From the NCBI RefSeq assembly GCF_910592395.1, contig NC_088314.1:13204001-13268000 (forward strand): a stretch of DNA of 64,000 nt. The letters run 5' to 3'. This document shows positions 1,768 through 63,979 of the stretch, piece by piece (position 1 is the first letter of the stretch; each line of letters begins with the position of its first letter). Below the pieces are notes generated by a model. It was not told the DNA's origin, did no database searches, and saw nothing but the letters and a program-made list of their open reading frames with translations. This DNA is from Lineus longissimus. Lineage: Eukaryota; Nemertea; Pilidiophora; Heteronemertea; Lineidae. Made by a program: the position numbers and the translations under genes.

Positions 1768-3375
1768 TACTGTCTTCTCCCACTTAACCGAGCGCGGCTG
1801 AATTGTAAAATGACTAAGTCCAAATGAATAGGCCGATTAGATCACAGATTTACTTATCAATTTACTAATCAATTTTATTATCCAAACGGGGTTTACACGT
1901 CATCATCAATAACATCATCATCCTCTTTTCCTTCCGAAAACTCAATCCCCTCAACAAACTGCTCAAGCTCACCATTTACCATCTCTACCCCCACTTCGTC
2001 ATTGTCCTCAGGAACTAGGCCACTGGCTCTCCAATCGTTCATAATCGTCTGTTGTGTGACCCTTTCCCAGCCGAGGCTGATCATCCTGACCACTTCCCGC
2101 CTGGTGATCCGCTCACACTGTCCTTGATCATCGATGTGGCCGATTTTCCACACTTTCCAAATGGTCCTCAGGTGACACTTGAAGTCCCTGTTTACGGTCA
2201 AGTCCATGGGCTGCAGCAGCGAAGTACATTGTCCTGGGATAAAAGTGTCTGTCCCATTCTCTGCGGTGATTGCATCACGAAACTGCTGATTTCGATGCCA
2301 GCGCCGGATACATGTCTAAAAGTAACAGGAACGTGGCACCTGCTACAAATGGCAAAATCAGGGCCTGCAACCACTCGATTAGCGATTGATTTTCCTAAAA
2401 AATACTACCATTAACTAGAATGTCTGATCGTCAATGACAACACTGATGACATCTGGTACATGTCCTGTACTACAACCACGGACTTGTATTCTATGCCAAT
2501 ACTCACTCGCACATGGTCTGGAGCATCCGCCTGAAGCTGCCGAATGACGTCACCATCTGGTGCCAAGCCTCTGAAGTATACCTCGGCTCGTCCTTTTCGT
2601 CTATCTGTCGTAACTACTAGAGTCACCGTGCATCCAAGTTTCGGGTTGCCTTGGGATGATCTAATGTTAACATTCTGATACCCAGTCGCTTCCATTGTTG
2701 ATCTTGGCACCATATCAAATGTTCATGATCATGTTCATGATGACATCAAAATCCAACGTACTCTCTACTATACCACAGTAGAGCATTTCACTGTTGTCGA
2801 TATCGCATTAAACAGTGAACATTCTACTGTGTGTTTGCTTTTGCGCACATTCTCTGCGCAACGAAGAATACCATTGAATTTTGAATATTAGGCCTAGCCT
2901 ATATAAATATTGCATGTCAAGCCATAGAATAGTCAAAATTATTTGTCAGGTCCAAAATTATTTCACGAGGCTTTAAACCAAACCTTGAAGAAATCGGCCC
3001 AGCAGGTTTTGCACAGCGACCAAAACCACTGTCAAAGTGATTTTTAATCGGCGGATACGCAAATCATGTATGGAGCCAAGACGTGTACATTATGTACTGT
3101 AGACAGTGTGTGTTTACATTAGCAGACGATGTTTGTTTGAAGCGAGTCCAGGCCCAACTTGAATGCCTTGTACTTTCTGTTCGTGGATGTAACAGTCCCA
3201 CCCAATGCAACCTACCAACTTTGTGGGTGTAATTCAAGACCCTGACAGTATCACTGTGCAACTTCCTGGCTTAAAACGCCGTAAATATGCTGTTTTTTAT
3301 CGCCGATTTCGTCGAAATCTTAATGGCCGCCATTTGCAATATCGCGTCATCGATGACGTCAGCCGTGGAATAATG

Positions 3376-3463
3376 CCGTGGAATAGTCAAAATTATCGCA
3401 TGGCACGTGGTCGTGAATGACGCGACGTGATTGGCTCACATACTAATGAGGTATGATAATCTG
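3376..3463. repeat. Dispersed repeat, also at 44337-44420 inverted
   Basis: The complement of this stretch reads TTATCATACCTCATTAG followed by an AATCACGTCGCGTC core. The same order occurs on the plus strand at 44337-44420, with scattered differences. Two copies 41 kb apart in opposite orientation indicate a dispersed repeat family of unknown type. Confidence 0.65.
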
Positions 3464-3650
3464 GAATATTGTTGAATGACCACGTGTTTTTAATTTGTAC
3501 TATATATATAGTTTTTGACTGTAGCCGAATAGATGATAAATCAATAAATCAATTTGAAATTTTGACTCTTTTATTTCATTTTAGCAGTGAGGATGGGCGG
3601 CAACAGGCGGTCTCATTTCCAACAACATGTCACAATAAGAGACCTTTTTC

Positions 3651-4552
3651 CCCTATGTGCCAAAGTATGAGGGGTTGGGGTCGTTAGGTCCTCTCATTCC
3701 CAGCTGCCAGTCACAGTCTGGTAAATTTTTGTCTCAAGTATGAATTTTGGCAATGATCATGGGTCGGGGTCCTATCATTCACAGCCACGAGACACAATCT
3801 GGGAACTTTTTGTCTCACATATAAAGTTTGGCAGTGATCATGGGTCGGGGTCCTATCATTCACAGCCGCGAGTCACAATCTGGTAACTTTTTGTCTCACG
3901 TATGAAGTTTGGCAGTGATCAGGGGTCGGGCTCCTATCATTCCCAGCCACGAGTCACAATCTGGTAACTTTTTGTCTCACGTATGAAGTTTGGCAGTGAT
4001 CATGGGTCGGGGTCCTATCATTCCCAGCCGTAAGTCACAATCAGGTAACTTTTTGTCTCACATATAAAGTTTGGCAGTGATCAGGGGTCGGGGTCCTATC
4101 ATTCCCAGCCACGAGTCACAATCTGGTAAATTTTTGTCTCACGTATGAAGTTTGGCAGTGGTCATGGGTCGGGGTCCCATCATTTCCAGCCGTAAGTCAC
4201 AATCAGGTAACTTTTTGTCTCACATATAAAGTTTGGCAGTGATCAGGGGTCGGGGTCATATCATTCCCAGCCACGAGTCACAATCTGGTAACTTTTTGTC
4301 GCACGTATGAAGTTTGGCAGTGATCATGGGTCGGGGTCCTATCATTCACAGCCACGAGTCACAATCTGGTAACTTTTTGTCTCACATATAAAGTTTGGCA
4401 GTGGTCATGGGTCGGGGTCCCATCATTCCAAGCCGTAAGTCACAATCAGGAATTTTTTTGTCTCACATATAAAGTTTGGCAGTGATCAGGGGTCGGGGTC
4501 CTATCATTCACAGCCACGAGTCACAATCTGGTAACTTTTTGTCTCACGTATG
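3651..4552. repeat. 81-bp satellite array, about 11 units
   Basis: The TTTTTGTCTCAC landmark recurs with its GTCTC at 3731, 3812, 3893, 3974, 4055, 4136, 4217, 4298, 4379, 4460 and 4541, an exact 81-bp period. Each unit carries GGGTCGGGGTCCTATCATT and AGTTTGGCAGTG. The units differ by point changes; alternating variants (CATATAAAG versus CGTATGAAG, GATCAGG versus GATCATG) hint at a higher-order two-unit repeat. The array ends at 4552, where transposase-derived sequence resumes. Confidence 0.95.
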
Positions 4553-5651
4553 GGCCCACTCATTGTTAATTGAAGAAGCGGATAATAGACGGCGAAAGCA
4601 TCTGGCCAACTGTGAGCTGTCTGCTGTGTAAGTGGAAAATGGAGACAGTGAAGAGTTCACTGTTTTGTGCGGAGCATGCTCTGCAAAATCAGCGTCTCTG
4701 ATGAGGTCGGCAAACTCTCCCCGGTAGTCGGCAACCAAAGCCTGGGCGTTGTCAGGTAACCCCCTTGAATATTTGGTCTTCCTTCGATAGCTGATTTGTT
4801 TCCTGAAATGGAATTTGCATATTACTAAAATTCACCGAATACAATCCATTCCGTACGTTAAGGCCGATCCATGCAACAGAGGAATAAAGCTCACCTTTCC
4901 ATAAAGTTGCTAAGCCAATGTGCAGATGCATGGAAAAGGTTTCGCAGGGGTCTCTGTTCTTGTCTTTCGGCCTTTGTTTCGTTCGGAAGCTCTGCCCACC
5001 ACTGCCGAAATTCTCTTCTAGCTTGCCCTTTAATATCCTCACCAGAAACAGGGAAACCAAGTCTTCGGCGCTCAAGGAACCAGGTGTTCAAATTGTTTTC
5101 CATTTCGGGCGAGTATGCTGAAACAAAAAAGCTAACACGTACAACATCTTAGGAAATATTGATTGGTGATGACCACAGGTATGAACGAAATGTTAGTCCT
5201 AGGAATAAGGGTCCCAGGAACAATCATGCTGATATTGTTAAAGGCATGGTCAGGGTCAGTCGCTTTGATGTATCATGCGACTTATTCTTCCGTCCATGAC
5301 ACAGAAGCGGACTTATTCCAGTCAGTATAGGCCAACAAAGAAGGAAATTCATTTAGCGAGGAATAGAATGCTTGAAGAAACACTACCTTGTGCATCAGTG
5401 CCGTGTTGCCATTGTCTCCTCCGTCTTCTATGGTCTTGAGTTGATCTATCTCTGAGGGCAAACAAGTCATCATGTGTGCTTATCCAACGTCTAAATGTCT
5501 GCGGTGCTATGCGGTGGTGTCTAGCAAAGGATGTCGCAGTTTCAGCATGATGTAATCCTATAGCATGCTCCAATTGGTATGTCTCGATAAGGTCAATCTT
5601 CTGATTGAGACTGTAGCTTTTCTGGTGCCTACGTGCACCCGATACAGCTTG

Positions 5652-11668: not shown

Positions 11669-12837
11669 TTATTCATGTAGGCCCACATCTTCATAGTCAA
11701 GCAAATCGATGAATGCCATGCCATCTTCCTCTTCTTCGTCCAGTTGAGGAAGTGGTCCTCCTTCAATTTCGCCCATGCGGAGGGATGCTTCAAACCCGCT
11801 TTCGATCACTTGGGGGGTTACAGCGTCCCAGGCGTTACTGACAATGGTGACAACATCATTTAGTTCAATACGGTTGCATTGTCCTGCTGCGTTGGTATGC
11901 TGCGTTTTCCACGACTTCCACTCCTTACGTGCGTTGGACTTAAACGATTGCAACGTCTAGGGGCTGGACCAATGATGTACACCCTGCTGGTACAAAGTGC
12001 ATGATTCCAACTAGCTCCGTTACTCGCATACCGAAGTCTTCAGACCGATGGACACTATAACGATCCAGTATCAAGATAACCTGCTCTGCTGGCTGCCTCT
12101 CCAGGTACGGTTGATAGACTTCCTCGATCCAGTGTTCGGCTGTCTCTTGTCTTACCCATCCTGTGGCAGATGATGTAACAACCACATTAGCTGACAAATC
12201 TTGTGCTTGAAGGGCTGCTAGCTGTCGTACAAACCCACGACCCGGAAACGTTATGAGGGCTAGCATCTCATCACCACTGGCCGCAACGCAGAGTGTTACA
12301 GTGCACCCTAGTTTAACATTCGATCGTGACGTACGTACGTCAATGGAAGCAGCACCTTTTCGGTTACACGAGTGCATGGGTCTAAAGTCAAAAAGAATGA
12401 AAGTTTCGTCCATGTAATAAATCGCATTGCGATGTTGAATTGATCAATAGTCCCAGTGACTTCATTGCGGAATACCTCAATTCGTATTGCAGCATCGGCT
12501 GGCAGGGTTGTAGTGTTTTTGTTCACTTTACGCAGGGTAATCTGTTTTCTCTTCATAAAAAGTTCAACCCATCCAGCCGAGGCTTGAAAATCATGTAAGA
12601 TTGGTCTTGTTTCAACGATTTCATTTCGCCTGGCATCTGTCAGACCACCCCACCAGGCATGGAAGGATTCCAAAGCCATTTCTTGCAAGTCCTGTACGGC
12701 GACGGGTAGGCGTATTTCACGTTGCTGGAGAAACCATTCATGAAGCTCATTTTCAACTTGAGGCCAGCAACCGATATCTTTCGGATTCACCCTTCTACTT
12801 CTTCCTTCATTCCCTTGTTGTCCTCGTTCCAAGCTTG
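11669..12837 (-). pseudogene. pogo transposase, second DNA-binding and DDE part (copy B)
   Basis: Reading leftward, the frame opens with SLERGQQGNEGR, then the CENPB-type domain (DIGCWPQVENELHEWF ... WVELFMKRKQ). After a frameshift near 12415 comes the DDE domain: MDETFILFDF (first Asp), ILILDRYSVHRSED (second) and CTSLVQPLDVAI (third). A further shift near 11950 leads to FKSNARKEWKSWKTQ and an acidic tail ending at 11669. The DDD pattern is typical of pogo/Tigger transposases. Frameshifts and separation from the N-terminus make it inactive. Confidence 0.88.
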
Positions 12838-13142
12838 TTAAAGGCCATATATCTAGGTTTTTTGCCATTTTCTGCTGTAAGACGATTTCAAAAGTGTACC
12901 TAACACTTTATACAATACAGAAAACCAAATGCAATTAGCTCCATCCATTTTGAAGATATAGCCAATTATGTGTTTGACAACTTGATTACCTAATCAGGCT
13001 AGCAACTGGCTTGTTAGAGCCAGGCGGCGGGTTCAGCAAAAGTTGTGATGTAGATCAGGTTATCTGTACATGTCATGCAATCATAAAAGCAGGAGGGCCT
13101 TAATTAATTATGCAAACCTGGAAGTAATGTGTTTCATTCACT

Positions 13143-13995: not shown

Positions 13996-14225
13996 CTTGC
14001 TTTGTTCTGACTGGCCTGATCTACGTCATCGAAAAATCCCTAGCGGAACTAATTTAAAGTTGTGTGTGGTGGGAAATTCAAATAGTTTAAAATTGAAAAT
14101 TGAAATAACTAAATAATGACTTTATTATTAGAATTTTTTTAATGTCTGGGATCTTGTTTTTTTAACCCTCAACATATTTCATGAGTATCAAGCATGTTTT
14201 CAAACCTTGATATATGAAGGGGTGC

Positions 14226-14515
14226 ATGCAAAAACAGCCTAAGTCACTTTTTACCATTTTCCAGGAGAGCCAAAAAACTGTTATTTTTTGATCTGTCATG
14301 GCAGCATTAAAATATGTACTTCTAGACACACAGGGGCATTGGTAATACCCTGTATGCAGTTTGAACGCTGTATTAAACACCAACAGTGGTAATAAGGGGC
14401 ATGTTCTGTTTTGAGGTAGGTCACTACAAGGTAAAACAACCTAAGTCGGATATTTTTTTGTGGCAAAATGACCTAAGTCAGGATTCTTTTACCGGCAAAA
14501 CAACCCAAGTCATTT
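14226..14515. promoter_or_regulatory. Left subterminal motif cluster
   Basis: A GCAAAAACA-RCCTAAGTCA-type motif occurs at the left TIR (about 14226) and again near 14431, 14464 and 14492 with small changes (AACAACCTAAGTCGG, AATGACCTAAGTCAGG, AACAACCCAAGTCA). CACTA- and Mu-like transposases bind repeated subterminal sites of this sort. Their use as binding sites here is inference. Confidence 0.6.
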
Positions 14516-15065
14516 TTTTCATATCAGTTGAGTTTGCTTCTCAAATTTGGTTATATCTACATTGAAAACCTGACCCAAGGCACTCATACCTGGTTGTTTT
14601 TGCCACTGAAAGAGCCATAGCAGTGACCTGAGCAGTTTTTCTACATAATAAAAGGACTGACCTAAAATACAAGAGTGTCTTCCAGCAGTCACATTTTTAT
14701 TGCACAAAACTACAACCATCAAAATGAAATTACAAATACTGCAAAATGGCAGGAACTTCAACAACAAAAACACCTCAATACACATCAAAGATTAGTAACA
14801 ATTGAAAGTACTTCCCACCAGAACAAGACCAAGCAGGTTGACTGGTAAAAGAAAGAGTAACGGTAAAGCCATTTGGACGGTCCCTAACACAGCAAAAATT
14901 AACCATACATCCTTCTTAGAAAAGGACAAACCAGTGGTGTTCTGGTGATTCCACAAACACGTGCTATCTAGAACGAATGGCACTGCTGTCATACCAGATG
15001 ACCATGGAAGGACATACAGGTGTACATTCTATTAAATCACTGACATTGTTGAATTGCTGACCTAA

Positions 15066-18000
15066 CTAACCATCACTATCGTCGCAGTATTCGGACTCAT
15101 CACCGTCGTCACGTGGGTCTCGTTGATGTGGCAAGTTCTCAAAATAACGCTGTTTGTTAATATCAGGGATGTACGGAATCTGCTTAACTATGTCCTTCCA
15201 TTTCTGCAAGGACAACTCAATTGGCCCTGTGTACTTCAGAGCTAAATCCTCAGTAAATGCCCCTCTTTTCAAAATGTTAACCTTCTTCCATGATTCTTTC
15301 TTGTCTAGTGTGTACCTGCACCACACCTGGTCCTTGTGTTCAATTTGAACTTCTGCTCCAGTCTCCCAGTGAACCTCCCAACTCTTCCCATAGCTGAACC
15401 ACTTGACTTTAGAGAACTGAACATTTTTGTTCAATTCATCCTTGAACTGTGTTTTTATACTGCATTGGCTAAGTTTCCGGTAGTCCCAAAAGTCATCACC
15501 GGTCATGTGTGTAACTGAGAAAGGCCTAGGGAAATCCCTGGCATCTTGAATGACTTTGGCATAATCTTCAGGGGTGAAAATCTTTTCAACATCACACCTT
15601 TGCTTTATTAATCCAAAGTCCCGATCGTTGGCCAAACGGGTATGACCCCTGACTAATATCTTATGATCAATACTCTCGTACTGGCCTTTTTGTATCAGGC
15701 TCTGGAAGAAACAGACAACATCGTGATTTCGGTTTTGACCACCACATCCATCTGAATAGAATATGCCCTCTTCACTGCCAGTTTCACGCTCATCCAGTAA
15801 TTTCTTCAGACAAGAAGCTACCTCCGCTCCTCCTTTCTTCGCCACTGTTTCTGGGTAAATATACATGAAGCCATCACCAGTGACATGGTCATGGACACCA
15901 AAATTGTATGCATTTAGCTGCCTGGCATAGTACATGTCGCTGTGGGTCATGTTGGGTACCATCAGATTTTGCTGATAATCGAAACTATACATATCTGTTG
16001 AACGACCCACATTCAACCTTGATGACCTTGCTAGAATTCCATCATTTCGCATCTCTTCATATCCTTGGTCAGCCAAAATATGGTGAGCTTGCTTCTCCTC
16101 AATTAATGCTTGTTTCTTCTCTGCATCGGATTCAGCTGCAATTTTGGCATTCAGTAAGTCACAAGTGCCACAAGTGTCTGTACGTGGGAACCCAAAGGCT
16201 ATGTTGTATGTTTTAAATACAGTTCTATATTTCCGCTCAGTTACTTCACCCTTGAATATTCCGGTGTTCCTATGAGCCTCATAGGCCTCTGGCTCACTTT
16301 CACTCACGTAAGATTTCCACATTCGTTTGATGTTAAGATTGTGGGGTAGGTACTTAATGTTCGGGTTGTCCCGTTGAGAATAGTGGGACTTCTGCGGCCC
16401 GCAACTTCTGATGTGAATCTTAATTTTTGCTATGGTCTCGTCACTAGTTTTGTTCGGAGGTACGCGCTTCCCTCGCCTGTCAGGCTTTGGAGATATATGC
16501 TCATCACTGTCTAACACGTATCTCATTCGCGACCTGTCTATTCCATGAATCAGAAGGAAACAACCTGCACAGACTTCAGTTCTCTCACCATTCGGTCGTT
16601 TCACGAAATATTCATATGGACAGCATCGATTTCGTTTATCTGGTGTTAGTTTCCTGTGTTGTTTCTCAGTGCTTTGTACTACCAAACCTAACAGGTACTG
16701 GTTCTGGATTTCCCGACTGGTCATACGGTAAAATCCCTTGAATATACTATCTGCCTCCCCTCCCAATTTCTCGAAACATTTTTTGCGGCATTCTTTACGC
16801 ACGAGTCTCCTTGGCGAAACAACTTTATTTTTATAGTTGATGTATTCCTCCCCCGCCGTTCTTTTCTTTTTGCTCATGTTTCGCTTCCAATTTTCTGGCT
16901 GTGGGGTCTTACGTTTCTTCAGAAAGTCTGTAAGAAAAAGAAAATGAAGAACTTGTCCAACAATTTGAACTACAGTGATACCAACAAGCCATCTCTTGGA
17001 TTTTATAACAAGTCTAAGCTTTGAGGAAATGACAACCTTGGTACTTTGAATCCCAACTTTGCTCTTAGGTTTTTGATTTTGAAACTTTGTCTAGGAAAGT
17101 CAAATTGAAAGTAGTGCCATAAAAAGAACAGAGTTTGATAAAACCGTAGTACAATGTACCTGGGAAGAACTTACCACCATCATTGGCATCAATGCCCTGT
17201 TGCTGGTTCATGTCAACAACACCCAGTGGCTGGTTCACAATCACATCAACAACACCCTGTGGCTGGTCTACATCAACAACATATGGTGGCTGGTCTACAT
17301 CAATAACATCTGGTGGCTGGTTTACATCAACAACAGCTGGTGGCTGGTCTACATCAATAACATCTGGTGGCTGGTCTACATCAATAACATCTGGTGGCTG
17401 GTCTACATCAAGAACATCTGGTGGCTGGTCAACATCAAAAACATCCTGCAGTTGAATCACATCATCGTCTGCAATGCAATACAAATAAACCTAGTGTAAA
17501 GTTAAATACAACAACCTATTTTGAAAAAAAGAGGTTCAATGCAACCAAGAGTACCAAGTCCCTGCTCAAGAAAACCGCATTATGAGATAAAGAACATACA
17601 TGGTACATTCCAGGCCATATTCATAAATATTTCTTAGGTTTAGAATAGATGCATGTACAATGTATCCTTTACTTAATCATTTTCAGGGCAAATGTTGTTT
17701 GCCTGAAGAAACTTTAGGAGGCCCTGACCTTGTGTTTTGGATATCTCAACACCTTACATTTTCATACAGAGAGCATTTGTATTTAAGCGTATCATGAGGC
17801 TAAAAACTTACCAACATTAAGAGGCTGGTCCACATCAACAAGGGCTTGAGCCTGGGCCACATTGACAATAGCCTTCTGTGGTTGGACCCCATGAACGATA
17901 ACCTTTTGTTGAGTTGTGATGCCAACATCTTGTGAGTGTGAATGGAAAGTCTGAGACTCGGAATGTTTCTGAGTTCGCACAGTGACATCTGGCCTTCCCT

Positions 18001-18349
18001 CAGGTTCTGCACGAGGAGCAGATTGTTCAGCTGCGTTTAAAAGTTCATGTCCAATATTTAACTCAATCATAGTATTGCCATCAAATTCCACAGGTTCTAA
18101 TGTCTCTGCCATAACAACTGCCCCAGCCATGCCAGCTGGCATTGGTACGTTTTTTGGCTCAACAATCATTTTTGAATTTAACAAACTTGAACCATTGTTA
18201 TCAATGTCGGTACCGGTAACCTCGTTGTCTGAGGAGTCCCCACCATCAGAGGGTTCATAGTCTGGGTCTCTATCATCATCACTGGGACCTGAACTTTCGT
18301 CAAGCAACTCCAGTACATCTTTCAGCTTGTATTTGTTCTGCTTTGCCAT
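15066..18349 (-). CDS. 897-residue transposase-like protein, three exons
   Basis: Exon 1 is 18349-17812, followed by GTAAGTTTTTA. Exon 2 is 17468-17175, preceded by TTGCATTGCAG and followed by GTAAGTTCTTCC. Exon 3 is 16927-15066, preceded by TTCTTACAG. All junctions are phase 1 and the total is 2694 nt with no stop before 15066. Residues 1-180 are acidic; about 181-278 are a DVDQPPDVI repeat; from about 295 a basic segment leads into Cys pairs (RCCPYEY, VCAGCF, DTCGTCD). Then come SFDYQQN (D594), YSDGCGGQNRN (D670) and GHTRLANDRDFGLIKQ (about 712-714), spaced like an RNase-H/DDE triad. The arrangement matches uncharacterised metazoan proteins I recall (possibly DUF7869-type), not a transposase family I can name. 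It is the only gene of the 14216-19370 element and looks intact. Confidence 0.8.
17183..17455. repeat. Coding minisatellite (27-bp units)
   Basis: Units containing CATCTGGTGGCTGGTCTACATC repeat about ten times with changes and one longer variant. On the minus strand they encode the nine-residue repeat DVDQPPDVI in exon 2 of the 897-residue gene. A lone DVDQP at the end of exon 1 shows that the repeat grew from pre-existing coding sequence around the intron. To respect length limits: the unit core is CTGGTGGCTGG. Confidence 0.85.
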
Positions 18350-18483
18350 TCTGTCCGCCTGAAATCAAAGAAAGCTTAGTGTAAACAAGAGTCCTGTAAT
18401 AGTACCATTCAGATAAATTCATGGTGTTCCAAAAAGGTTATTATTACCCCGGTCTCTCCTGAAACCTTTCAGTAGAACTCAGA

Positions 18484-18681
18484 AAGGCTGCCGTCAATTC
18501 AGCGCACTAGCTGATCATTCCAACCGGTACCCATTTATACACCTGGGTGGAGAGAAGCAACTGCAGGGTTAAGTGTCTTGCCCAGGGACACTGAAACCAG
18601 TATTGTGGTTCTAACCGGAGTTGAACCCACGACCTTTCGGTTATGAGTCCGGCGCTCTAACCATTACTCCACTGATTCCCC
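18484..18681 (-). mobile_element. tRNA-derived SINE
   Basis: On the minus strand, from 18681, a tRNA-like head contains an A-box-like TGGTTAGAGCGCC, a CAT in anticodon position (GGACTCATAACC) and a B-box-like GGTTCAACTCC. A body with CAGTGTCCCTGGGCAAG and a CTCTCCACCCAGGTGTATAA segment follows. This head-body layout is that of the V-SINE/Deu-like SINEs of marine deuterostomes, as I remember them. The mature tRNA fold is not kept past the B box. It lies upstream of the 897-residue gene's start codon, inside the innermost transposon. Confidence 0.75.
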
Positions 18682-18904
18682 AATACAAAGTTTGCTGATG
18701 GCGATGGCGATGAACTGGGGTGTTTGATTGATTTTTTTGTGCAGGCATGTTGCCACATTAAAGGCCTACGTGTACGCCTACGTTGTTAGCGACCAGCTAG
18801 CGAGCAAGATTGGGCTTAGGCCTATGTTATCACTGCCAGGACCACTCCTTTGTGCACTTACTAGGCATGTAATGCATTAGTACACACATTCTGAATCATT
18901 CTGC

Positions 18905-19370
18905 TGCATGCAAAAACAACCTAAGTCAGGTGCAACAAGATCACGCATTTTAAAGCACTAACGTTAAAATCTGTCAAATTTCTCATTCCTTTAGAATCTC
19001 TGTATAATAACCATTTATCTAAGCAGTTGCTATTTCAATACTCACCAAAAGAATAACTAAAAACCTCCAAAAACATTGATTGACAAAAAACAATGATTGA
19101 AGTAAACAGGTATTTTTCACCTCCTTTTGTGGAGAGCTGCATGCAAAAAGAGCCTAAGTCAGCAGATGTTAGAGCAAATACAACCTAAGTCAGACGTAGG
19201 TTATTTTTGCACCAGATCACCATCTTTGCCTTCATTTTTTGGCAGAAGAGGGCAGCACCTGTAGGCAAACCATATTATTGGTGGATAGGGGACGGTATAA
19301 GGATTACAGCAATGCCACCATGCAAAAACAGCCCAAGTCAGACTTGGGCTGTTTTTGCATGCACCCCTTC
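18905..19370. promoter_or_regulatory. Right subterminal motif cluster and terminal hairpin
   Basis: Copies of the AAAACA-ACCTAAGTCAG motif occur near 18910, 19143, 19175 and 19321. The one at 19175 is followed by an inverted partner (ACGTAGGTTATTTTTGC). At the tip, 19319-19358, TGCAAAAACAGCCCAAGTC meets its exact complement, forming a hairpin immediately inside the TIR. The left end lacks this palindrome. Confidence 0.65.
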
Positions 19371-19383
19371 ATATGGCCTTTAA

Positions 19384-19560
19384 GTCCCATTTACTGAACG
19401 TGTGGATCGATATTTTGTAGTGGTTCGCGTATTCCGTCATGCACGCCACCGTCCCATTCAAAAGGGCTGTCTGAAAGTCCTCTAGGTACCGAATTTTCTC
19501 CGTGACGGAATAACTCCTTCTTCGCTTCGGAAGAGGTTCATCTGCGTTGTCAATGATGTC
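19384..19560 (-). pseudogene. pogo transposase N-terminal helix-turn-helix (copy B)
   Basis: Read on the minus strand, DEPLPKRRRSYSVTEKIRYL ... TEYANHYKI ... FSKWDL is the psq/CENPB-N domain. It aligns residue by residue with copy C (DEPLPKRKRSYSVSEKLRYL). The frame runs into the TTAA junction at 19383 and resumes at 12837. The codon in the position of copy C's start Met is GCA here. Confidence 0.85.
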
Positions 19561-21059: not shown

Positions 21060-24000
21060 TCCACTCGCGCCAGCCATACACGCTCGGTCGGGAACAATGG
21101 ACGATCTTGAGGGATGATAGAATAAAATTCGAATCGGGATCAAGGGCTGTAGAAACGTAATGGAGCTATAATCCTCCTGGATAAAGAAGAGTGTCTTTGG
21201 CTGTTTTTTTAAACGTTTAGACTGGGTGCTTTCTGTAAGCTTTCTTGCATAGTTCCAGAGCAGAAAAGCAAAACCGCCATTCGCCGCGCCTTTGCGACTA
21301 CCATTCTTAATTTATTGGAGGGGCGACGGTGGACGGCGAGGTTTGGGGCCGGAAGAGTAGGCCCTCGCCAATGGTTACGATTGATATTAAGATAGCACCG
21401 TTTACTGAGCGTACTCTTGCTCAGCAGCAAATCGAGATTGTCCGGAATCCTCTCATTGGGAGATTGACGTAGTCCCTCAAACATGTCAAAAACCATTCGA
21501 CATCGCCATATTGAAAAATTAATCCGGGTCGTCACCACATGTCGATTGTGACGAGGTCGCGCAAGTGGCAGAGTGAATCGGCCAAAATAGTCCTCCCCAA
21601 AATAATCTTACATTTCAGAATATTTGAGTGGTCTTTTCTTCATATATCGTTTTCATATAGTTCAATAATAAGTTTCTTAAAAAATTTATCGTTTGAATAG
21701 CCTAAAAAAACGAATGAATCGAGGTCAAGAAAAGTAATTTTTGGTGCCAATGATGTCACCAATTGCGGATTTGTACTGGAGTTCGAGTCGATTCAAGGTT
21801 CCTTTTAGGTCGGTAAATCTAAAAAAATACTCAAAACTTATTTCCCTATTTTTCCCCTATTTTCACTTATCAAATTTTAGAGCCAGTCGAGCACTTCAGT
21901 GTTACTATTCTAATAAAGCAGTCAGAAAGTTGGTGCCTCAAATTAATTCGACGCCCTATTCGTGATCTAGGAGCTGCTGTTCTTGACAGGCAATTTGAAG
22001 CCATGGATTTCAGGGAATGCGTACTCTTTTGTAATATTCGTTACAGGAAAAACTGCACACATGTTTCATTCTTGGAATCAACCAAAACATGCAAAAATAT
22101 ATTACCAGAACTACAAAACGTCGACGTGTAAATAAAGATGGCAGATGGACAGGATCGATGACATGACAATTTGACCCTCAATATATATTGACATTGCTAG
22201 GCTTCCAGAGACAACGCACGTCAATATGGATGGAGGCTACGGAGGCAATACCGCTGGAAGTTCAGTATGATGACATTGAGTACTTGGACACACTGGAGGG
22301 TCGTTCCACCAAGTAACCTCGCTAAAACAATTAGTTTGCCATAAACCAGATCGACTTTACCACTTGATGTGTATGGATAATAAATCATACAACATTGTAA
22401 AAGAATACTTCGTCAACAGCACTATGGTAAGTAAGAAGATTTCCTTTCAGTAATCATGGTTAGATCATTGTACAAAGATGTCCTCGACGGACCTGTTATT
22501 TGATGAAACATTTCTGACCAGATTATTTTGATATATTTCAACAGGATTCAATGTTTCACACAATGAGACTATGAATCAAATAATCAATAGACACAAAGAG
22601 AGCAGAATACATGCAGAATATTCGTAGAATCGATAATGATACATTGTCTCTCGTTTTCTTTTTGCATTTTGCACTTCACAAGCAAAGTCCTGTACTTTGC
22701 CGCTTTTCAGAATATACTTTTGGTGGGATTTTGACGTGTGTGCATATATGCGTCGCCAGAATTTACATAAAAGGCATGCATGTATATTGCAATGTGAATA
22801 GGATGGAGATGGTCTGATATATACTAGGTGGAAGAAAAAGTGTTCATGTTACCAAAAATTCATGAAGTCTTTATGAATTCTTGATATTACAGGCGACACG
22901 CCGAATAGAAGATGGGTTTCACAAAACAAATCACGAAACCCTTGTGAGCATGCCAAAAGCTTAACCCTCTCCAATCAATTTCCGTACAACTTCGGAGGTA
23001 CATACAGTGGGAGCCTTGGAAACTTTGCCCGATCGGCTGAACGTTAGGACAGACAGTTAACCAGATCTAGACAAGACGGACACTCAAAATACCTGATGGC
23101 AACTTGCCGTGATTCTCTCTACGCTGCCGCACTTCAATATTAAAAATTTAGCTTCTAATTGCGTCACGTCTAGCCTTTTATATACTCTAGACTGAGAATA
23201 GTAGAAATCCTCCTCAACAGACCGAAATCTGCTGCAGTTAGAAAATGCGACTGAGCAGCCGGTCGCAAAGACAAGGAATGTCAATGACTACTCGATGAGA
23301 CCAGAGTCTTTCAAATAAATAGAATGACTCTGAGGAGACGCAGCACTAAGAACGATTGTCAGCAAACGGGATAAAATTCGATTAAAAATGGGTTCAGCGG
23401 TGATTAGGCTTTTATTCATATATCAAGTAGTTGTGGCGGCAGCAGTTTTGAAACGTAAGATTTGTTGACCATTGATTGCCTTATTTCTGCCAGACGGAAT
23501 TTGTGAAAATGAATATAGGCCTTGCATATGGAACCGCAAGAGGTTGCTGAAAATGTCAAGAACCGACATTGAGAGGAAGATACTCTATCGCCTAACCGAA
23601 TGTTGGTGCTAGTAGTAACTATCGAATCAGCAACTGGTGATTTAAGCAACGGATATAACTACATGTACATGTAAAGTAAAGTAAAATATTTCGTCGTTTT
23701 ACAAATTACTTCTGTTTCTTGCCGCTGATTTGTAAAATATAGGTATCCAAAAATGGTGATGTTTTATATGGTGTTTTTTTCAAGTAACAGCGGATTTGCT
23801 GAATTACAGCTGATTCTATGGCCACTAATCATCCAGTTTGGAGTTGCAGATCCTTTCGCCCTAACGTTGTCCTTTTCTCGACATTTTCAATGACTTGGGA
23901 CCTCAAGCTCGTATCTAAGATGCTCGGCCTTCTTATAGGCTACATTCTTTAGAAGCACCCATGTTGCGACACAAGAGATCTGTTGCAACCATTTCCTGTC

Positions 24001-26802: not shown

Positions 26803-28562
26803 ATGGACATGGAAGTGGAAGACGATGCACATGAAGACGTTGCCGTTAAACTGGCAATGGAGTGGGAGAAGCATCCAGGGTTGTATGTGACAACTTGTAA
26901 TGAATACAGGGATGTTGACTACAAGGCTGCCGCTCTTAAGAGCATCGGCAAGGAAATCGGTTGCAGCGGTAAGTTGATATTCGGGGTTAATCGGGAACAA
27001 ACAAACTTTGAAAATTAAACGTACACCTTTATTTCACCTTTATTTTCAGTTATCATCACTTCGTTATGATTAAGCGTACTCATGACAATCTCTATACACG
27101 TCTATTTTAGTGCCCACAGTAAAAACCAAAATGAAATCTTTACGCACGATGCTCGCTCGAGCTGTAAAGTGCTCTCCATCCGGAAGCTCCCGGAAGAAGC
27201 TGCCGAAGAAACAAGAATGGGTGAAAGAAAAAACCTACAGTTTTTGTTGCCCTATATGAACATAGGCAAAACGTCAACGAATCTCAAGGTATTTATGACG
27301 TCTTGAAATGTCATTCGAACACCATATCGTATTGCCATGAAACCTCTCCGTTTGGCGACATGAAGTAGTCACGCATAGCATCCCTTTGTTGTTTTGCGTT
27401 CAGTTTGCACATACGTTGGTTGGTTTTTTCGAGCGGCGTCAGCTGTTTTTCTTGCGCACCTCTCCATGCTCCGTCCATCCGCGTATGAGAAGCATTTTCT
27501 CGGTCTACGTCTCCTCGTCTGATATAAAAGGTGGACTGGTTATCTATCAAATAGTTGTGTAAACAACAAGCTCCAAGAACTATGTCCTCAAGTACTCTTG
27601 GTCCCAGCTTTATAGTCGTTAGAAATACTCTAAACCTGTGAGCGATAATCCCGAAGCAATTTTCTGAGGTGCGCCTTGCACGATTCAATCGATAGTTGTG
27701 GATTTTGGTGGCCATATCATGAGTTCTATCGGGGTATGGCTTTGAACAATCTAGTCGCAATTGAAAGGCAGCATCCCCTATGTAGGGGGTGGACAAGTAT
27801 TCCACTTGTTCCAAGTTCTGCATCTGGAGGAAAATTCATGTGTTGTAATCCATGCCAAATTTCAGTGTAGACTGATGGAATATTCCAGCATCCCCTGCGC
27901 GACCCGGGGCCCCAACATCAACGTACAGGAATCTGTATCTTGCGTCAACAACCGCAAGAAGTATGACACAGAAAAAGTGCTTGTAATTAAAATATGCTGA
28001 TCCGGTGTTTCCTGGCATCTCGATGCTGATATGTTTGCCGTCTATTGCTCCAAGGCAAAGCGGATAGTTGCACTTGTCCTCAAACTCTGACATAACAATT
28101 TTCCACTCATCCTGGCTCTCGGGCATCTGAAATGAAAAAAAAAGAAGATTAATATGCCTATTTTTCTCATTTCAGGAACAAGCAAACACCCCTAATGATT
28201 TTGAAGAAGGATTGGAAAGAAAAGAAGATTCAAACGATGATTCAGATGGTGATATGGCTGAAGAGGAAAAGGTTGCGGAAGGCCGTGAAAAGTTGCCGGA
28301 TGCCCAAGAGGTCCCTCCTATGACATCGGAAGGTCCGTCGACCAAACGCCGCAGCTCTTCTCCCGCCGAACGGTCCACCACAGCCGACAAAGCTAAGAAC
28401 AGGAGTACTACCAAGACACTGAGGAAGGGCAAAATGAACCAGTTTGAAGAAGAAGAGTTGAGCCTGCTGAAAAAACTTACAAACCCTTGTGAGACACCTG
28501 CAAAACTTAATCAAGACATGGACGAAATGGACTCTCTCCTTCAGACTCAAAAGGCTGGATAG
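26803..28562 (+). pseudogene. Harbinger accessory MADF-type protein gene
   Basis: Exon 1 (26803-26968) encodes an acidic start and the first half of a MADF helix-turn-helix (WEKHPGLYVTTCNEYRDVDYK), then GTAAGT. Exon 2 (27111-27288) follows TCTATTTTAG and continues in phase with LRTMLARAVKCSPSGSSRKK and QEWVKEK. A one-base slip in the A-run then gives a stop, while the neighbouring frame reads LQFLLPYMNIGKTSTNL, the expected MADF end. Exon 3 (28176-28562), after CTCATTTCAG, encodes an acidic Ser-rich segment and a C-terminal EEEELSLLKKL helix. Such proteins are thought to bind element ends and carry the nuclease to DNA. The transposase exon lies antisense within intron 2. Confidence 0.7.
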
Positions 28563-30022: not shown

Positions 30023-31545
30023 TTACTGCCCTGCTATCTCAGGCTCAAACTCATCAGGCAGATTGAGGAATTCTACCCCCTGTTCGTCGTCATCGTCGTC
30101 ATCTGGAACTGGGTGTGGACCTGCGTCTATGTTCTGTGGGCGTAACGCTTTCTCAAATCCATGCTCGACGACCTCTGGGCTGATCGCTTCCAAGGCACGG
30201 CTGACGATGTTGACAACATCTCTGAGTCGAATTGGATCACACTGGCCCCGCTACGTTGGTGTTTTCGGTCTTCCATGACTTCCATGCTTGTCTGACGTGA
30301 CATTTGAAGGATCTCATGACAGCCACATCCAGGGGTTGTGCCAAAGATGTGCATCCGGCCGGTACAAAGTTGAGTCTGCCCCCTTCTGCAGTGAGACGAT
30401 TCCTGAAGTTCTCCGTTCGATGTACTCTGAACTGATCCACCAAAAGTATGAACTGTTCAGCATGGGCCTCGTGGACGTATGGTATGAAGATTTCGTCAAG
30501 CCAATGGTGAATCGTCTCCTGTCTGACCCATCCCGTGGCGGACGATGTGACCACAACGTTTTCGGGCAACTCGGCCTCTTCCAGAGCTCGAAGCGCGCGA
30601 ACAAATCCTCTTCTCGGAAAGGTGATGTGGGCTCGCATCTTATCGCCATTCGCCGCCACGCAAAGTGTAACAGAACATCCCAGCTTTGGATTCTTCCTGA
30701 AGGTTCGTACATCAACAGCCTTGCCGCCTTTCTCATTGAGGGTGTGCATTAGGCGGAGGTCGAAAAGGAGGAAAGTCTGGTCCATGTTGAAAAACAGGCG
30801 CATTGGTATACCAAAATTTTCGATGGTGTTGGTTATTTCATCGCGAATGTTCCGAACCAGGACAACGGCGTTTTCGGGAATGGTGGTAGTGTTCTTCGTG
30901 ACTTTTCGCAGGCTGATGTCCTTCCTCTTCATAAAAAGTTCCACCCAGCCGTTGGATGCATGGAAATCATGCATTAGTGGTTTTGCTTCTGTGGCGAGTT
31001 GTCGGCGCTCTCCTGGGAGGGCATCCCACCAGGTGTGGAATAGTTGCACGGCCTTCTCCTGGACATCCTGGATCACAACAGGTAGACGTCTTCGCTGAAC
31101 ATCCCGGTGTGCAAGGGATAGTAGTCCTAGGGCTGATAGTCCGTGTAACAATAGCCCTCATTGCTAAATGTTTTGGTTAGGGTTAGCGGTACAATAGATC
31201 ATGCTGCTTAATTGATCAAATACAATGCTACCGGACTATGACTCCAGGGGGACTATATCCGCTGTCACACCGGAACCAAATTTCTAGTTGGTCTTCGACC
31301 TCAGGCCAGTAACCAATCAACCTCTGCTTCACCTTTCGGTCTTTGCCCCGGTTCTGCTCCTCCTTCAATTCCAGGTCATGACGGTTCCACCTGCGAAACG
31401 TCTCAAAAGGTATGTTGTGGTGGTTGGCAAATTCTGTCATCGTTCGCACAGTGCCATTTCCAATGGCAATCTCAAAGTCTTGCAGGTATCGCAGCTTCTC
31501 CGACACGGAATAACTACGCTTTCTTTTAGGCAGTGGCTCATCCAT
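30023..31545 (-). pseudogene. pogo/Tigger transposase, best-preserved copy (C)
   Basis: From ATG at 31545: the psq/CENPB-N helix-turn-helix (RSYSVSEKLRYL ... FETFRRW), then IGYWPEVEDQLEIWF. A 162-bp MITE interrupts, after which the second CENPB-type domain continues (QRRRLPVVIQDV ... WVELFMKRK). The DDE domain follows: FFNMDQTFLLFDL (first Asp), FILLVDQFRVHRTE (second) and CTSLAQPLDVAV (third). One inserted base near 30243 shifts the frame; beyond it QCDPIRLRDVV and an acidic tail run to a stop at 30023. Apart from the MITE and this one-base shift the frame is open, so this is the youngest pogo copy here. Unlike copy A it shows no introns. Confidence 0.9.
31108..31269. mobile_element. 162-bp MITE with CCGG duplication
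   Basis: Ends TGTGCAAGGGATAG and, inverted, TGTGACAGCGGATATAG, both leading to TAGTCC and ATAGTCCG. CCGG occurs directly at 31104-31107 and 31270-31273. Removing the MITE and one CCGG rejoins the pogo reading frame in the spacing seen in copies A and B, which fixes the boundaries. Four-base duplication with TGT ends is what I recall for Ginger-type elements. Confidence 0.8.
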
Positions 31546-31654
31546 ATTTCTACAAGTTGTAGGCAAGGCAAGAAGAGGTTTCCGACAGTACCCAAACTTT
31601 ATATACGCCTGAAACCTCACTTATTACTCAATAGTTTTTGCCCTTTTAAGCCTA

Positions 31655-58929: not shown

Positions 58930-59869
58930 GGGTGTATACAAAACCAAGACCTAAGACATAAGACCTAAGACCTAAGATCCCCGAAGTACAAAACTAAGAC
59001 CCAGGTACAAAACTAAGATCCCCGAGGTACAAAACTAAGACCCGGGGAGGCCAATTCCAAACTAAAATTTTGAAGAAAAATATCAGAGTCTTAGTTTTGT
59101 ACATCAGGGGATCTTAGTTTTGTACGTACAAAACTAAGATCCCCCGAGGTACAAAACTAAGACCCAATTCCAAACTGAAATTTTGAAGAAAAATATCAGA
59201 GTCTTAGTTTTGTACATCAGAGGATCTTAGTTTTGTACGTAAACTAGGATCCCCTGATGTACAAAACTAAGACTCTGATATTTTTCTTCAAAATTTCAGT
59301 TTGGAATTGGGTCTTAGTTTTGTACCTCGGGGGATCTTAGTTTTGTACGTACAAAACTAAGATCCCCTGATGTACAAAACTAAGACTCTGATATTTTTCT
59401 TCAAAATTTCAGTTTGGAATTGGGTCTTAGTTTTGTACCTCGGGGATCTTAGTTTTGTACGTACAAAACTAAGATCCCCTGATGTACAAAACTAAGACTC
59501 TGATATTTTTCTTCAAAATTTTAGTTTGGAATTGGCCTCCCCGGGTCTTAGTTTTGTACCTCGGGGGATCTTAGGTCTTAGGTCTTATGTCTTAGGTCTT
59601 GGTTTTGTATACACCCAAATTTCAGTTTGGAATTGGGTCTTAGTTTTGTACCTCGGGGGATCTTAGTTTTGTACGTACAAAACTAAGATCCCCTGATGTA
59701 CAAAACTAAGACTCTGATATTTTTCTTCAAAATTTTAGTTTGGAATTGGCCTCCCGGGTCTTAGTTTTGTACCTCGGGGATCTTAGTTTTGTACCTGGGT
59801 CTTAGTTTTGTACTTCGGGGATCTTAGGTCTTAGGTCTTATGTCTTAGGTCTTGGTTTTGTATACACCC
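58930..59869. mobile_element. Multi-palindrome foldback element
   Basis: The outer ends GGGTGTATACAAAACCAAGA and its complement (to 59869) are inverted, followed by AAGACCTAAGACATAAGACC-type arms. The interior is built from one module (GTACAAAACTAAGATCCCC, TCAGAGTCTTAGTTTTGTAC, TTTTTCTTCAAAATT) in alternating orientation. TTAGTTTTGTACGTACAAAA palindromes separate the modules, and at least seven orientation switches can be followed. No ORF and no clear target duplication is present. Confidence 0.88.
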
Positions 59870-60236
59870 GTTTTGTGATGGAATATTTATACGAACTGCA
59901 AAGAAAGACTGAGCATCTCTACATTCAGTTAAGCGCCAGAGCCATGAACCTCTTGTTTAGTATCACAGCCCAATATCATGCCATTGACAGTGCATCCGAC
60001 AAATGAACCATACTAATTTTAGTGTCAAATGCACAAGGAAAAAGTACACACTATTATAATTTCTATTTTCGGAAACATTATATCGACAAAACTAAATAGA
60101 CACAGGTATCTCTTAGTTTGTACTCTCCTTCGTCCTTGTTTTTTAGGAAACGGTCCAGCCTAGTCGACGGAAGTAACTGAGAAGGCTCTCATAGGTGGCA
60201 TCACTCTTGTCCTGGCATTACTCTTGCCTTCTTACG
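59870..60236. other. No identifiable gene
   Basis: Spacer between the foldback element and the BEL/Pao remnant. Confidence 0.35.
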
Positions 60237-61337: not shown

Positions 61338-63979
61338 ATGACGTCTCTCCCAGCCGTCCTAGCTTTTGACCTCTCTCAGGATGGTAACATAGGGCCCAGA
61401 TGGGAAAAGTGGTTAACAAGATTGCAGCGCCTACTCCTTGGCATGAACATAACAAACGCAGCAAGGAAGCACGCATTACTGCTTCACTATGCAGGCCCAG
61501 ATGTCGATGAAATCTTTGAAACACTTACGGTGCCAGACCCCCACTGGTGATGAAACGATTTTCGACACAACTGCCAAAGCCCTCACGACCTATTTCACGC
61601 CACGCACGAACACAGCTTTCGAAGTATACACGTTCAGATAGTGCAACAAGGATCACGGTGAGTCAATCGACTCCTACGTCACAAGGCTTCGCAAGCTCGC
61701 CAAGTCTTGTGGATTTACAGACGTCAACAAGGAAATAAACGACCAGATCATCCTTGCGTGCTCGTCTCAATCCCTACGCCGACGTGCTTTACGACAGAAC
61801 CTCCAACTTGAAGACCTCATCGCTGCTGCCCGAGCTTTGGAGCTCAGTGATAAACAAGCCGACAAAGTGGAATCCGCCACTAAAGCCTCCGTGAATGCCG
61901 TCCAACGGTCAGCTAGCCGCGGCAGAGGCCGACAACGAAGTTGAGGTGGTCATCAACAACACAGGCCACAGCCCAGATCACGGTCTCACTCCAAATATCA
62001 ACCCCCAAAGCACGATTCGCAACCATACACGACGACCAACCCGCGAAAGCAGCCCTCTTCGAGAAACAGCAAGAGCGGCTACTTCTGTGGCAGTTCCACA
62101 CGCCATCATAAGAACGATGCAAGTTGTCCCGCCACAGGCAAAGAATGCAGCGCCTGTGGTACAGTCGGTCATTTCAACAAGGTTTGCCAGAAAAGTCAAC
62201 GACAAGCACGTGCGGAACGCCAGCCAAAGTGAACCATCAACTCAGCCAGTAGATCTAGACTCGGATGATGAGTACGTATACTCAGTTAGAAACGTAGCTC
62301 AGTCGAAAACTCGCCTACCACGATGCCGCATAAAGCTGAACACCTGTCCTATGCAGTTCATGATCGACACCGGAGCATCGGTCAACCTCATCGACGAAGC
62401 CTCATACGATGAATTACGCCAATCTCGCCCACACACAGCACAGCTGCTGACGCCAAAGACCAAATTGTATCCATACGGTTCGAAGACGCCGTTGCCCGTC
62501 ACAGGAACGTTCACAGCCAATGTCCGTCACGGAGAAATGTCGACACAGACAACATTCTACGTCGTGCCAGGAGCAGGAGGCAACCTTCTAAGTTTCACAA
62601 CTGCCGAAACCCTAGGCATGATCTCCATCAATTTTAACGTGAACGCGGAACCTGACGTAATTCAAGAATTTCCAGACTTGTTTAAACCCGGGATCGGCAA
62701 ACTTCGTGGACGCCAAGCCAAGCTCCATATCAACACCGAAGTTCCACCTAAACACCAGCGCCACAGACGGATCCCATTCCACATCAGGAAAGATGTGGAA
62801 TCCGAAATCGATCGTCTCATCAAACTGGACATTATCGAGAAAGCCGATGGTCCAACGCCGTGGGTAAGCCCAATCGTCGCAGTGCCTAAGAAAAATGGCA
62901 AAACTCGCATCTGCGTCGACATGCGTGCAGCAAATACCGCCATCCTACGTGAGAAACATCCGATGCCATCAATAGATGAACTTATCACCGATCTTAATGG
63001 ACCGACAGTGTTTACGACACTAGACCTAACCAGCGCATACCATCAACTCGAGCTCGATCCAAAATCACGATACATTACGACCTTCAGCACTCACATGGGA
63101 CTTTATCGATACAAGAGACTCCTGTTCGGTGTAAATGCCACTTCGGAAGTGTTCCAGTGCACCATTGCAGAGATTCTTTGCGACATCAACGGTTGCATCA
63201 ATATCTCTGATTACATCATTGTTCACGGAAAAACCAAGCGAGAGCACGATATGAACTTGAAAGCAGTCCTACAGCAACTTCAGGACTACGAAGCGCGTCT
63301 AAACCTCAAAAAATGCAAGTTCGCACAACACCATGTGTCCCTCTATGGTCATGTTTTTGGCAAAGACGGTCTAGCTGCAGATCCGAAGAAAATCGACGCA
63401 CTCGTAAACGCTCCACCGCCCAACAACGCATCCGCAGTCAAATCTCTTCTTGGCATGGCTCAATACGTTTCCAGATTCGTTCCCAACTACGCTTCGATAA
63501 CCACACCACTTCGTGAGCTGACGCGCAAGGACACACCATGGATCTGGGACAGCCGCCACCAACAATCGTTTAAGGACCTCCAGCAAGCCCTAGCTGGTGC
63601 TGAGGTTATGGAGTATTTCGACGCCAAGAAACACTCAGAAATCATCGTCGATGCCAGCCCAACCGGTCTCGGAGCCATCCTCACCCAAAATAACAAGGTC
63701 GTTAGCTATGCCAGCCGTGCACTCTCAGATGTCGAATCACGATACTCGCAAACCGATCGCGAAATGCTAGCCGCAGTATGGGGAGCCGAGCACTTTCATT
63801 TGTACATCTACGGCTCACACTTTACGATTATAACCGACCACAAACCACTCCTTGGAATCGTAAACAGCACGATGCCAGCTTCTGCCAGGATGGAAAGGTG
63901 GCGCCTCCGTCTCACTCTCTATAGCTTCGATCTTGCATACACTGTAAATCTGGACGCAAGGGCCCAACGCGCCGCGTAG
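61338..63979 (+). pseudogene. Ty3/Gypsy gag-pol remnant
   Basis: The gag capsid region (about 61338-61940) needs one frameshift near 61540 and crosses stops near 61640 and 61942. A zinc knuckle CSACGTVGHFNKVC (62146-62187) lies out of frame with the long pol frame. That frame then gives an aspartic protease (FMIDTGASVNLID, near 62360), RT with TTLDLTSAYHQ (near 63018), and RNase H (VDASPTGLGAIL near 63650; TDREMLAAVW near 63755). At the RT active site the sequence is ISDYIIVHG: the second Asp of the usual pair is Tyr, which would abolish polymerisation. The frame stops at 63979 within foreign sequence, and no integrase is present. The copy is defective. Confidence 0.85.

Follow-up and report, generated by a model that had tools for sequence, protein, structure and literature searches.

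A probably young DNA transposon with a DUF7869 gene in the nemertean Lineus longissimus, most likely a new family of Sola

A 5,155-bp element occupies positions 14216-19370 of a 64,000-nucleotide stretch of the genome of the nemertean Lineus longissimus (contig NC_088314.1, positions 13,204,001 to 13,268,000 of the forward strand; hereafter the window, to which all coordinates refer unless a locus is named). An earlier note, made from the sequence alone, had described it as an apparently intact transposon of an unnamed type with a spliced 897-residue DDE-like protein. The locus thus raises the question of what kind of mobile element this is, and whether the domain in its single long gene, DUF7869, is the enzyme that moves it. 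We find strong evidence for a transposon with a DUF7869 transposase and a 4-bp target site duplication. The element is probably a young autonomous cut-and-paste DNA transposon, whose transposase carries a triad of three aspartates (DDD), and most likely represents a new Sola family, closest to Sola2 in its target-site habit.

The 30-bp inverted ends reported in the earlier note are present. The left terminal inverted repeat (14216-14245, plus strand), which begins GAAGGGGTGCATGC and was delimited by inverted-repeat search, by a second copy and by a genome-wide scan for ends, is identical at 29 of 30 positions with the right repeat (19341-19370, minus strand), and ATAT stands on each side of the element (14212-14215 and 19371-19374). 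Counted with these flanking bases, the arms extend over 14212-14245 and 19341-19374 and agree at 33 of 34 positions; since four of the arm bases belong to the palindromic ATAT duplication, the ends proper are 30 bp long with one mismatch. Because ATAT is palindromic, the length of the duplication cannot be fixed from the window copy alone. It was fixed by the second full copy, which is flanked by AAGT on both sides, a non-palindromic sequence that points to a 4-bp duplication, and by one short derivative that has ATTT on both sides. A 2-bp TA or AT duplication, considered for the window copy, is made unlikely by these two copies.

Other copies, for which the earlier note had proposed a search, were indeed found in the host genome (391,118,348 bases in 30 contigs). 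The second full copy lies on another contig and shares 99.8% identity with the window copy across 5,166 aligned bp (blastn), and the match extends 10 bp beyond the left terminus and 1 bp beyond the right one before the flanks differ. A half copy runs from the left end to approximately window position 16696, followed by unrelated palindromic sequence. When the terminal 24-mer was searched in the whole genome with up to three mismatches, 12 ends were recovered versus none for the reversed control; they belong to the two full copies, the half copy, a lone end on contig C7 and three short derivatives. These derivatives are internally deleted to 231-247 bp and retain both ends; for example, the one that was fully read fuses roughly 165 bp from the right end with 63 bp from the left. 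Inverted ends, an open frame of 897 residues, the second full copy and the genome-wide end matches all agree with the description of the window copy as apparently intact.

The gene of the element lies on the minus strand and comprises three predicted coding exons, separated by two GT-AG introns of phase 1. Exon 1 (17812-18349; 179 codons plus one base) encodes an acidic N-terminus, exon 2 (17175-17468; 294 nt) consists mostly of 27-bp tandem repeats, and exon 3 (15066-16927), which includes the stop codon, encodes zinc-binding-like cysteine pairs and the putative catalytic domain. The predicted spliced frame spans 2,694 nt with the stop codon and has no internal stop, so that the three exons, the phase-1 junctions and the uninterrupted frame of the earlier description are all reproduced. 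The remaining frames of at least 80 codons within the element reach 134 codons at most. The tandem repeats of exon 2 (17195-17445) encode acidic DQPPDVIDV-like units, and an exon of 294 nt with phase-1 ends could be skipped with the frame unchanged. In the 5' region of the element (18520-18680), positions 18617-18627 read GGTTCAACTCC on the minus strand, which we take to resemble a tRNA B box and which presumably could mark an old insertion of a short interspersed nuclear element; ARAGORN found no tRNA.

Whether the protein belongs to DUF7869 had been left as a question, and exon 3 does match this Pfam family (PF25273) at 15456-15911 on the minus strand, with 34.7 bits against a curated cut-off of 26; the same match scored 36.9 bits in a profile search of the genome. 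Up to an E-value of 10, DUF7869 was the only Pfam family reported for exon 3 by a scan whose filters drop most weak matches, and comparison of exon 3 with PDB sequences, NCBIfam and PHROGs gave no match. The Pfam entry gives no function, and the term DUF7869 was not found in the literature searched; a complete element with ends and duplications is what is added here.

The DUF7869 profile matches the host genome at 86 places, counted exon by exon. The search gave 30 of these places as loci, to which 20 wider stretches were added, and a stop-free frame resembling exon 3 was present in 39 of the 50 loci tested. We aligned the window exon 3 with 19 sequences chosen from these 39 open-frame loci. 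All three acidic motifs named in the earlier note are present, and the triad that they contain is conserved in the relatives. The proposed catalytic residues, placed by alignment with relatives and all on the minus strand, are D594 (in SFDYQQN, 15978-15980), D670 (in YSDGCGGQNRN, 15750-15752) and D712 (in NDRDFG, 15624-15626), giving a spacing of D-x75-D-x41-D; the third conserved aspartate is the first D of NDRDFG, not the second. Invariant columns of the 20-row alignment are D392, C394, Q397, N398, N400 and D434 in exon 3 numbering, and they include D670 and D712. The second and third aspartates are accordingly conserved in 20 of 20 rows, and at the first position Asp occupies 15 of the 18 rows without a gap. 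A 23-row alignment, in which two places are included twice, displays the same conserved triad. This conservation suggests that Asp 594, 670 and 712 may act as a catalytic DDD triad. As for the cysteine pairs said to precede the motifs, C530-x2-C533 stood up to comparison, recurring in the relatives that reach that far, whereas of C397-x2-C400 the first cysteine alone is kept.

In a weak structure model (mean predicted local distance difference test score, pLDDT, 49.8), strands and helices follow the RNase-H order around the three aspartates, similar to the predicted strand and helix order of retroviral integrases and other DDE recombinases with an RNase-H fold. In a second-look fold alignment 14 of 50 rows were integrases, aligned from the strand bearing the first aspartate, with unrelated proteins ranking equally. 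A single-sequence model of exon 3 had a mean pLDDT of 35.0 and was useless. In DDE/D transposases with this fold the triad lies on strand 1, on strand 4 and on the helix that comes next; the DUF7869 protein may have such an RNase-H-type core.

The subterminal regions carry repeated sites, as the earlier note had observed. Allowing up to three mismatches, CAAAAACARCCYAAGTCA has 10 matches in the 64-kb window versus 0.36 expected, nine of them within the element and one outside at 21192. A weight matrix built from eight of the CAAAAACARCCYAAGTCA-like matches recognized 10 sites of at least 17 bits, all of them within the element near its two ends, and two sites of 6-7 bits outside; the top score on five random sequences was 11.5 bits. 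In the 28-bp register of the matrix, the four left-end sites (14223-14516, plus strand) start at 14223, 14425, 14457 and 14489, and the six right-end sites (18905-19363) start at 18905, 19138, 19169 and 19317 on the plus strand and at 19188 and 19336 on the minus strand. The sites at 14223 and 19336 overlap the left and right terminal repeats, respectively. Inverted-repeat search also identified a perfect palindrome of 43 bp (19319-19361) with 21-bp arms and a 1-bp centre, which is formed by the right terminal repeat and a subterminal site that faces it.

Several other DUF7869 genes are present as near-identical copies on different contigs, and comparison of such copies allowed the boundaries of further element families to be read. 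For family A (L062-L064) the ends read GTGACCCAACACCAC and the duplications are ATAT, AAAT and ATAT; for family B the ends read GTGACCCTCCAGTAC, with ATTT duplicated at L067, and the element at L079 has ends GTGACCTGCTCC and the duplication ATTT. Family D (L072, L073), with ends CGTCGATGTTTTGTCG and duplications ATTG and AATT, is the best-scoring relative among the loci compared, the element's own copies aside (approximately 24% identity to the window protein over 632 residues, E-value 7e-38). Similar to the window element, family D forms elements (4,268 bp) with inverted ends and 4-bp duplications; unlike it, family D has a single open frame of 932 codons, ends CGTCGATGTTTTG and two matches to PF04236 (Tc5 C-terminal) upstream of the core. 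The better of these matches lies at L072:3486-3584, within the frame 2640-5435, in front of the DUF7869 core.

With the window family included, an exact 4-bp duplication flanks 10 of the 13 copies for which both ends were read, whereas random 4-mers agree at 0.46%. Left out of this count, because one end was absent from the stretch analysed, were the half copy, the lone C7 end and the loci L065, L068 and L078. For families C and E (L069-L071, L074-L075) no inverted ends were found in the stretches examined; the inverted-repeat search covered L070 and the others were judged by their similarity boundaries. Among the relatives scanned, seven of seven exceeded the DUF7869 cut-off, as expected for sequences picked by that model. 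It should be noted that seven places on contig C14 (L031-L036, L039) have near-equal scores, among the highest for DUF7869, with the profile split over two pieces; this group is a different DUF7869 subfamily that may be expanded or domesticated.

We also searched outside the host, which was the sole eukaryote covered, and found no DUF7869-like relatives in the viral contigs, phages and plasmids searched. Among prokaryote genome contigs 26 stretches matched a pattern and none was confirmed by tblastn. The motif DGCxGQNxN had one chance match in viral contigs, and SDxCxGQNxN had none there and 28 in genome contigs, in frames of up to 241 codons with no wider similarity. The earlier note had supposed that uncharacterised proteins with the same motif order are transposases; within the worm genome this idea gains ground, as the DUF7869 genes of at least four further families (A, B, D and the one at L079) lie within elements that have inverted ends and are flanked by 4-bp duplications. 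Together with the window element, these families suggest that DUF7869 acts as transposase for elements that have inverted ends and make AT-rich duplications of 4 bp.

In the mechanism that we propose, the single spliced gene would encode a DUF7869 protein that works as a DDD transposase, in which a zinc-binding-like cysteine motif stands ahead of an RNase-H-type core. After binding to the subterminal sites and the 30-bp ends, this protein would excise the element and join it to the target with cuts staggered by 4 bp, and such cuts would give rise to the 4-bp AT-rich duplication. The same transposase may also mobilise the short internally deleted derivatives.

To which superfamily such an element belongs was assessed against published descriptions. 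Sola is described as having a DDD transposase, 4-bp duplications, a length of 2-9 kb for most elements and ends of 11-1124 bp (PMC10741241). Here, the second and third aspartates are kept in all 20 rows and the first in 15 of 18, suggesting a comparable catalytic triad; exact 4-bp duplications flank 10 of 13 copies (10 of 15 with family F, discussed below); and 5,155 bp and 30 bp fall within the ranges of size and end length. For Sola2, AT-rich AWWT duplications, such as ATAT, AAAT and ATTT, are described together with a transposase of 888 residues (PMC3627910). Of the 10 duplications read here, eight have the AWWT form, including two of three in the window's own family, whereas AAGT and ATTG depart from it; a transposase of nearly 900 residues and short inverted ends are further likenesses to Sola2. 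The mean length of Sola1 in a survey of bivalves is 5,445 bp (PMC10294476). Since the DDD residues, the 4-bp AT-rich duplications, the size and the end length fit Sola by description, and the AWWT form fits especially Sola2, the label of an unnamed type was probably wrong and a named superfamily is the likelier home. DUF7869 would then be part of the Sola transposase, and the element would be nearest to Sola2.

Several observations weigh against a young, autonomous Sola-type transposon. The assignment to Sola is inferred from features described for that superfamily. The first aspartate is replaced by N, H or V in three of 18 rows, and in the fold search with the model of mean pLDDT 49.8 unrelated proteins rank level with retroviral integrases. 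Few copies were found, namely two full and one half, and in the second full copy the frame, open in the window copy, is shifted by the loss of two bases from exon 1. Exact duplications are lacking in the derivative on C1 (flanks ATTT/TTGG), in the derivative on C15 (near-matching flanks ATCA/ATCT, one end damaged) and in the family B copy L066 (flanks GACT/CAAC); for family F (L076, L077), whose inverted ends are C-rich, no duplication could be read, and its inclusion lowers the count to 10 of 15. The empty sites that the earlier note had suggested looking for did not materialize: a search of the genome with the joined flanks of the second copy found none, and a candidate for the window copy at 12838-12860, which matches the joined flanks at 22 of 23 bases across a junction with a single ATAT and falls within a fragment resembling pogo that lies on the opposite strand, was rejected. 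Among 200 random joins of window sequence made as a control, 16 matched equally well or better, some of them possibly as extensions of a flank matching itself, and the candidate is therefore no better than chance and was not counted as an empty site.

These points bear differently on the alternatives. Low copy number and the frame-shifted second copy would fit the view that the DUF7869 gene is an ordinary host gene or a passenger moved by another transposase; we consider this very improbable, as no other element frame of at least 80 codons exceeds 134 codons and DUF7869 is present throughout families with ends of three different kinds, although the loci had been selected by searching for DUF7869, so that the occurrence of ends and duplications is the one independent observation. 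Hardly more attractive, and improbable in our estimate, is membership in another known superfamily in which duplications measure around 4 bp, for instance Ginger, Kolobok or the Chapaev group of CMC. Chapaev and Ginger duplications are of this length too; CMC and Chapaev ends begin with CAC, whereas the ends here begin with GAAGG, GTGAC or CGTCG, and those of the window element with GAAGGGG. Pfam, under the filters mentioned above, offered no family but DUF7869 for exon 3. Kolobok duplications are likewise about 4 bp long and have the sequence TTAA (PMC9587614), whereas this element family has ATAT, AAGT and ATTT, and none of the 10 duplications is TTAA. A more serious competitor, which we still regard as unlikely, holds that DUF7869 defines an animal DDD cut-and-paste superfamily separate from Sola and so far without a name, of which the window element would be an intact type member with ends, 4-bp AT-rich duplications, subterminal sites and short derivatives. 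It draws on the listing of the domain as unknown in Pfam, on the absence of the term DUF7869 from the literature searched, on ends of several kinds (GAAGGGG, GTGACC, CGTCGATG) and on the lack of a match to any named family in PDB sequences, NCBIfam and PHROGs; this last point says little, because the libraries scanned contain no eukaryotic transposon reference set. The triad, the 4-bp AT-rich duplications, the size and the end length all fit published Sola and Sola2 and favor assignment of the element to Sola.

Other parts of the window also contain traces of mobile elements. Three fragments of pogo/Tc5-type transposases lie on the minus strand (11943-12907, 30240-31157 and 1896-2315), all with DDE_1 matches and two of three with HTH_Tnp_Tc5. 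The right flank of the element (19411-19542) is related to the N-terminal part of a pogo-like frame at 31231-31620, with 71% DNA identity to 31411-31542 over 133 columns, and the left flank has no continuation of this similarity. A piece of a DDE_Tnp_4 transposase is located at 27314-27835 on the minus strand, and an open frame of 694 codons with reverse transcriptase and RNase H matches, resembling a long terminal repeat retrotransposon, at 61895-63976. At 59005-59874 a CTTAGTTTTGTAC unit is densely repeated in nested copies, both direct and inverted.

DUF7869 is listed by Pfam as a domain of unknown function, and the useful gain from this locus is a likely function for it. If this is true, annotators could reclassify predicted proteins with DUF7869 from uncharacterised genes to transposons. 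The near identity of the copies, together with the open frame, points to a recently mobile family, in which the proposed catalytic residues and end sites would be directly testable.

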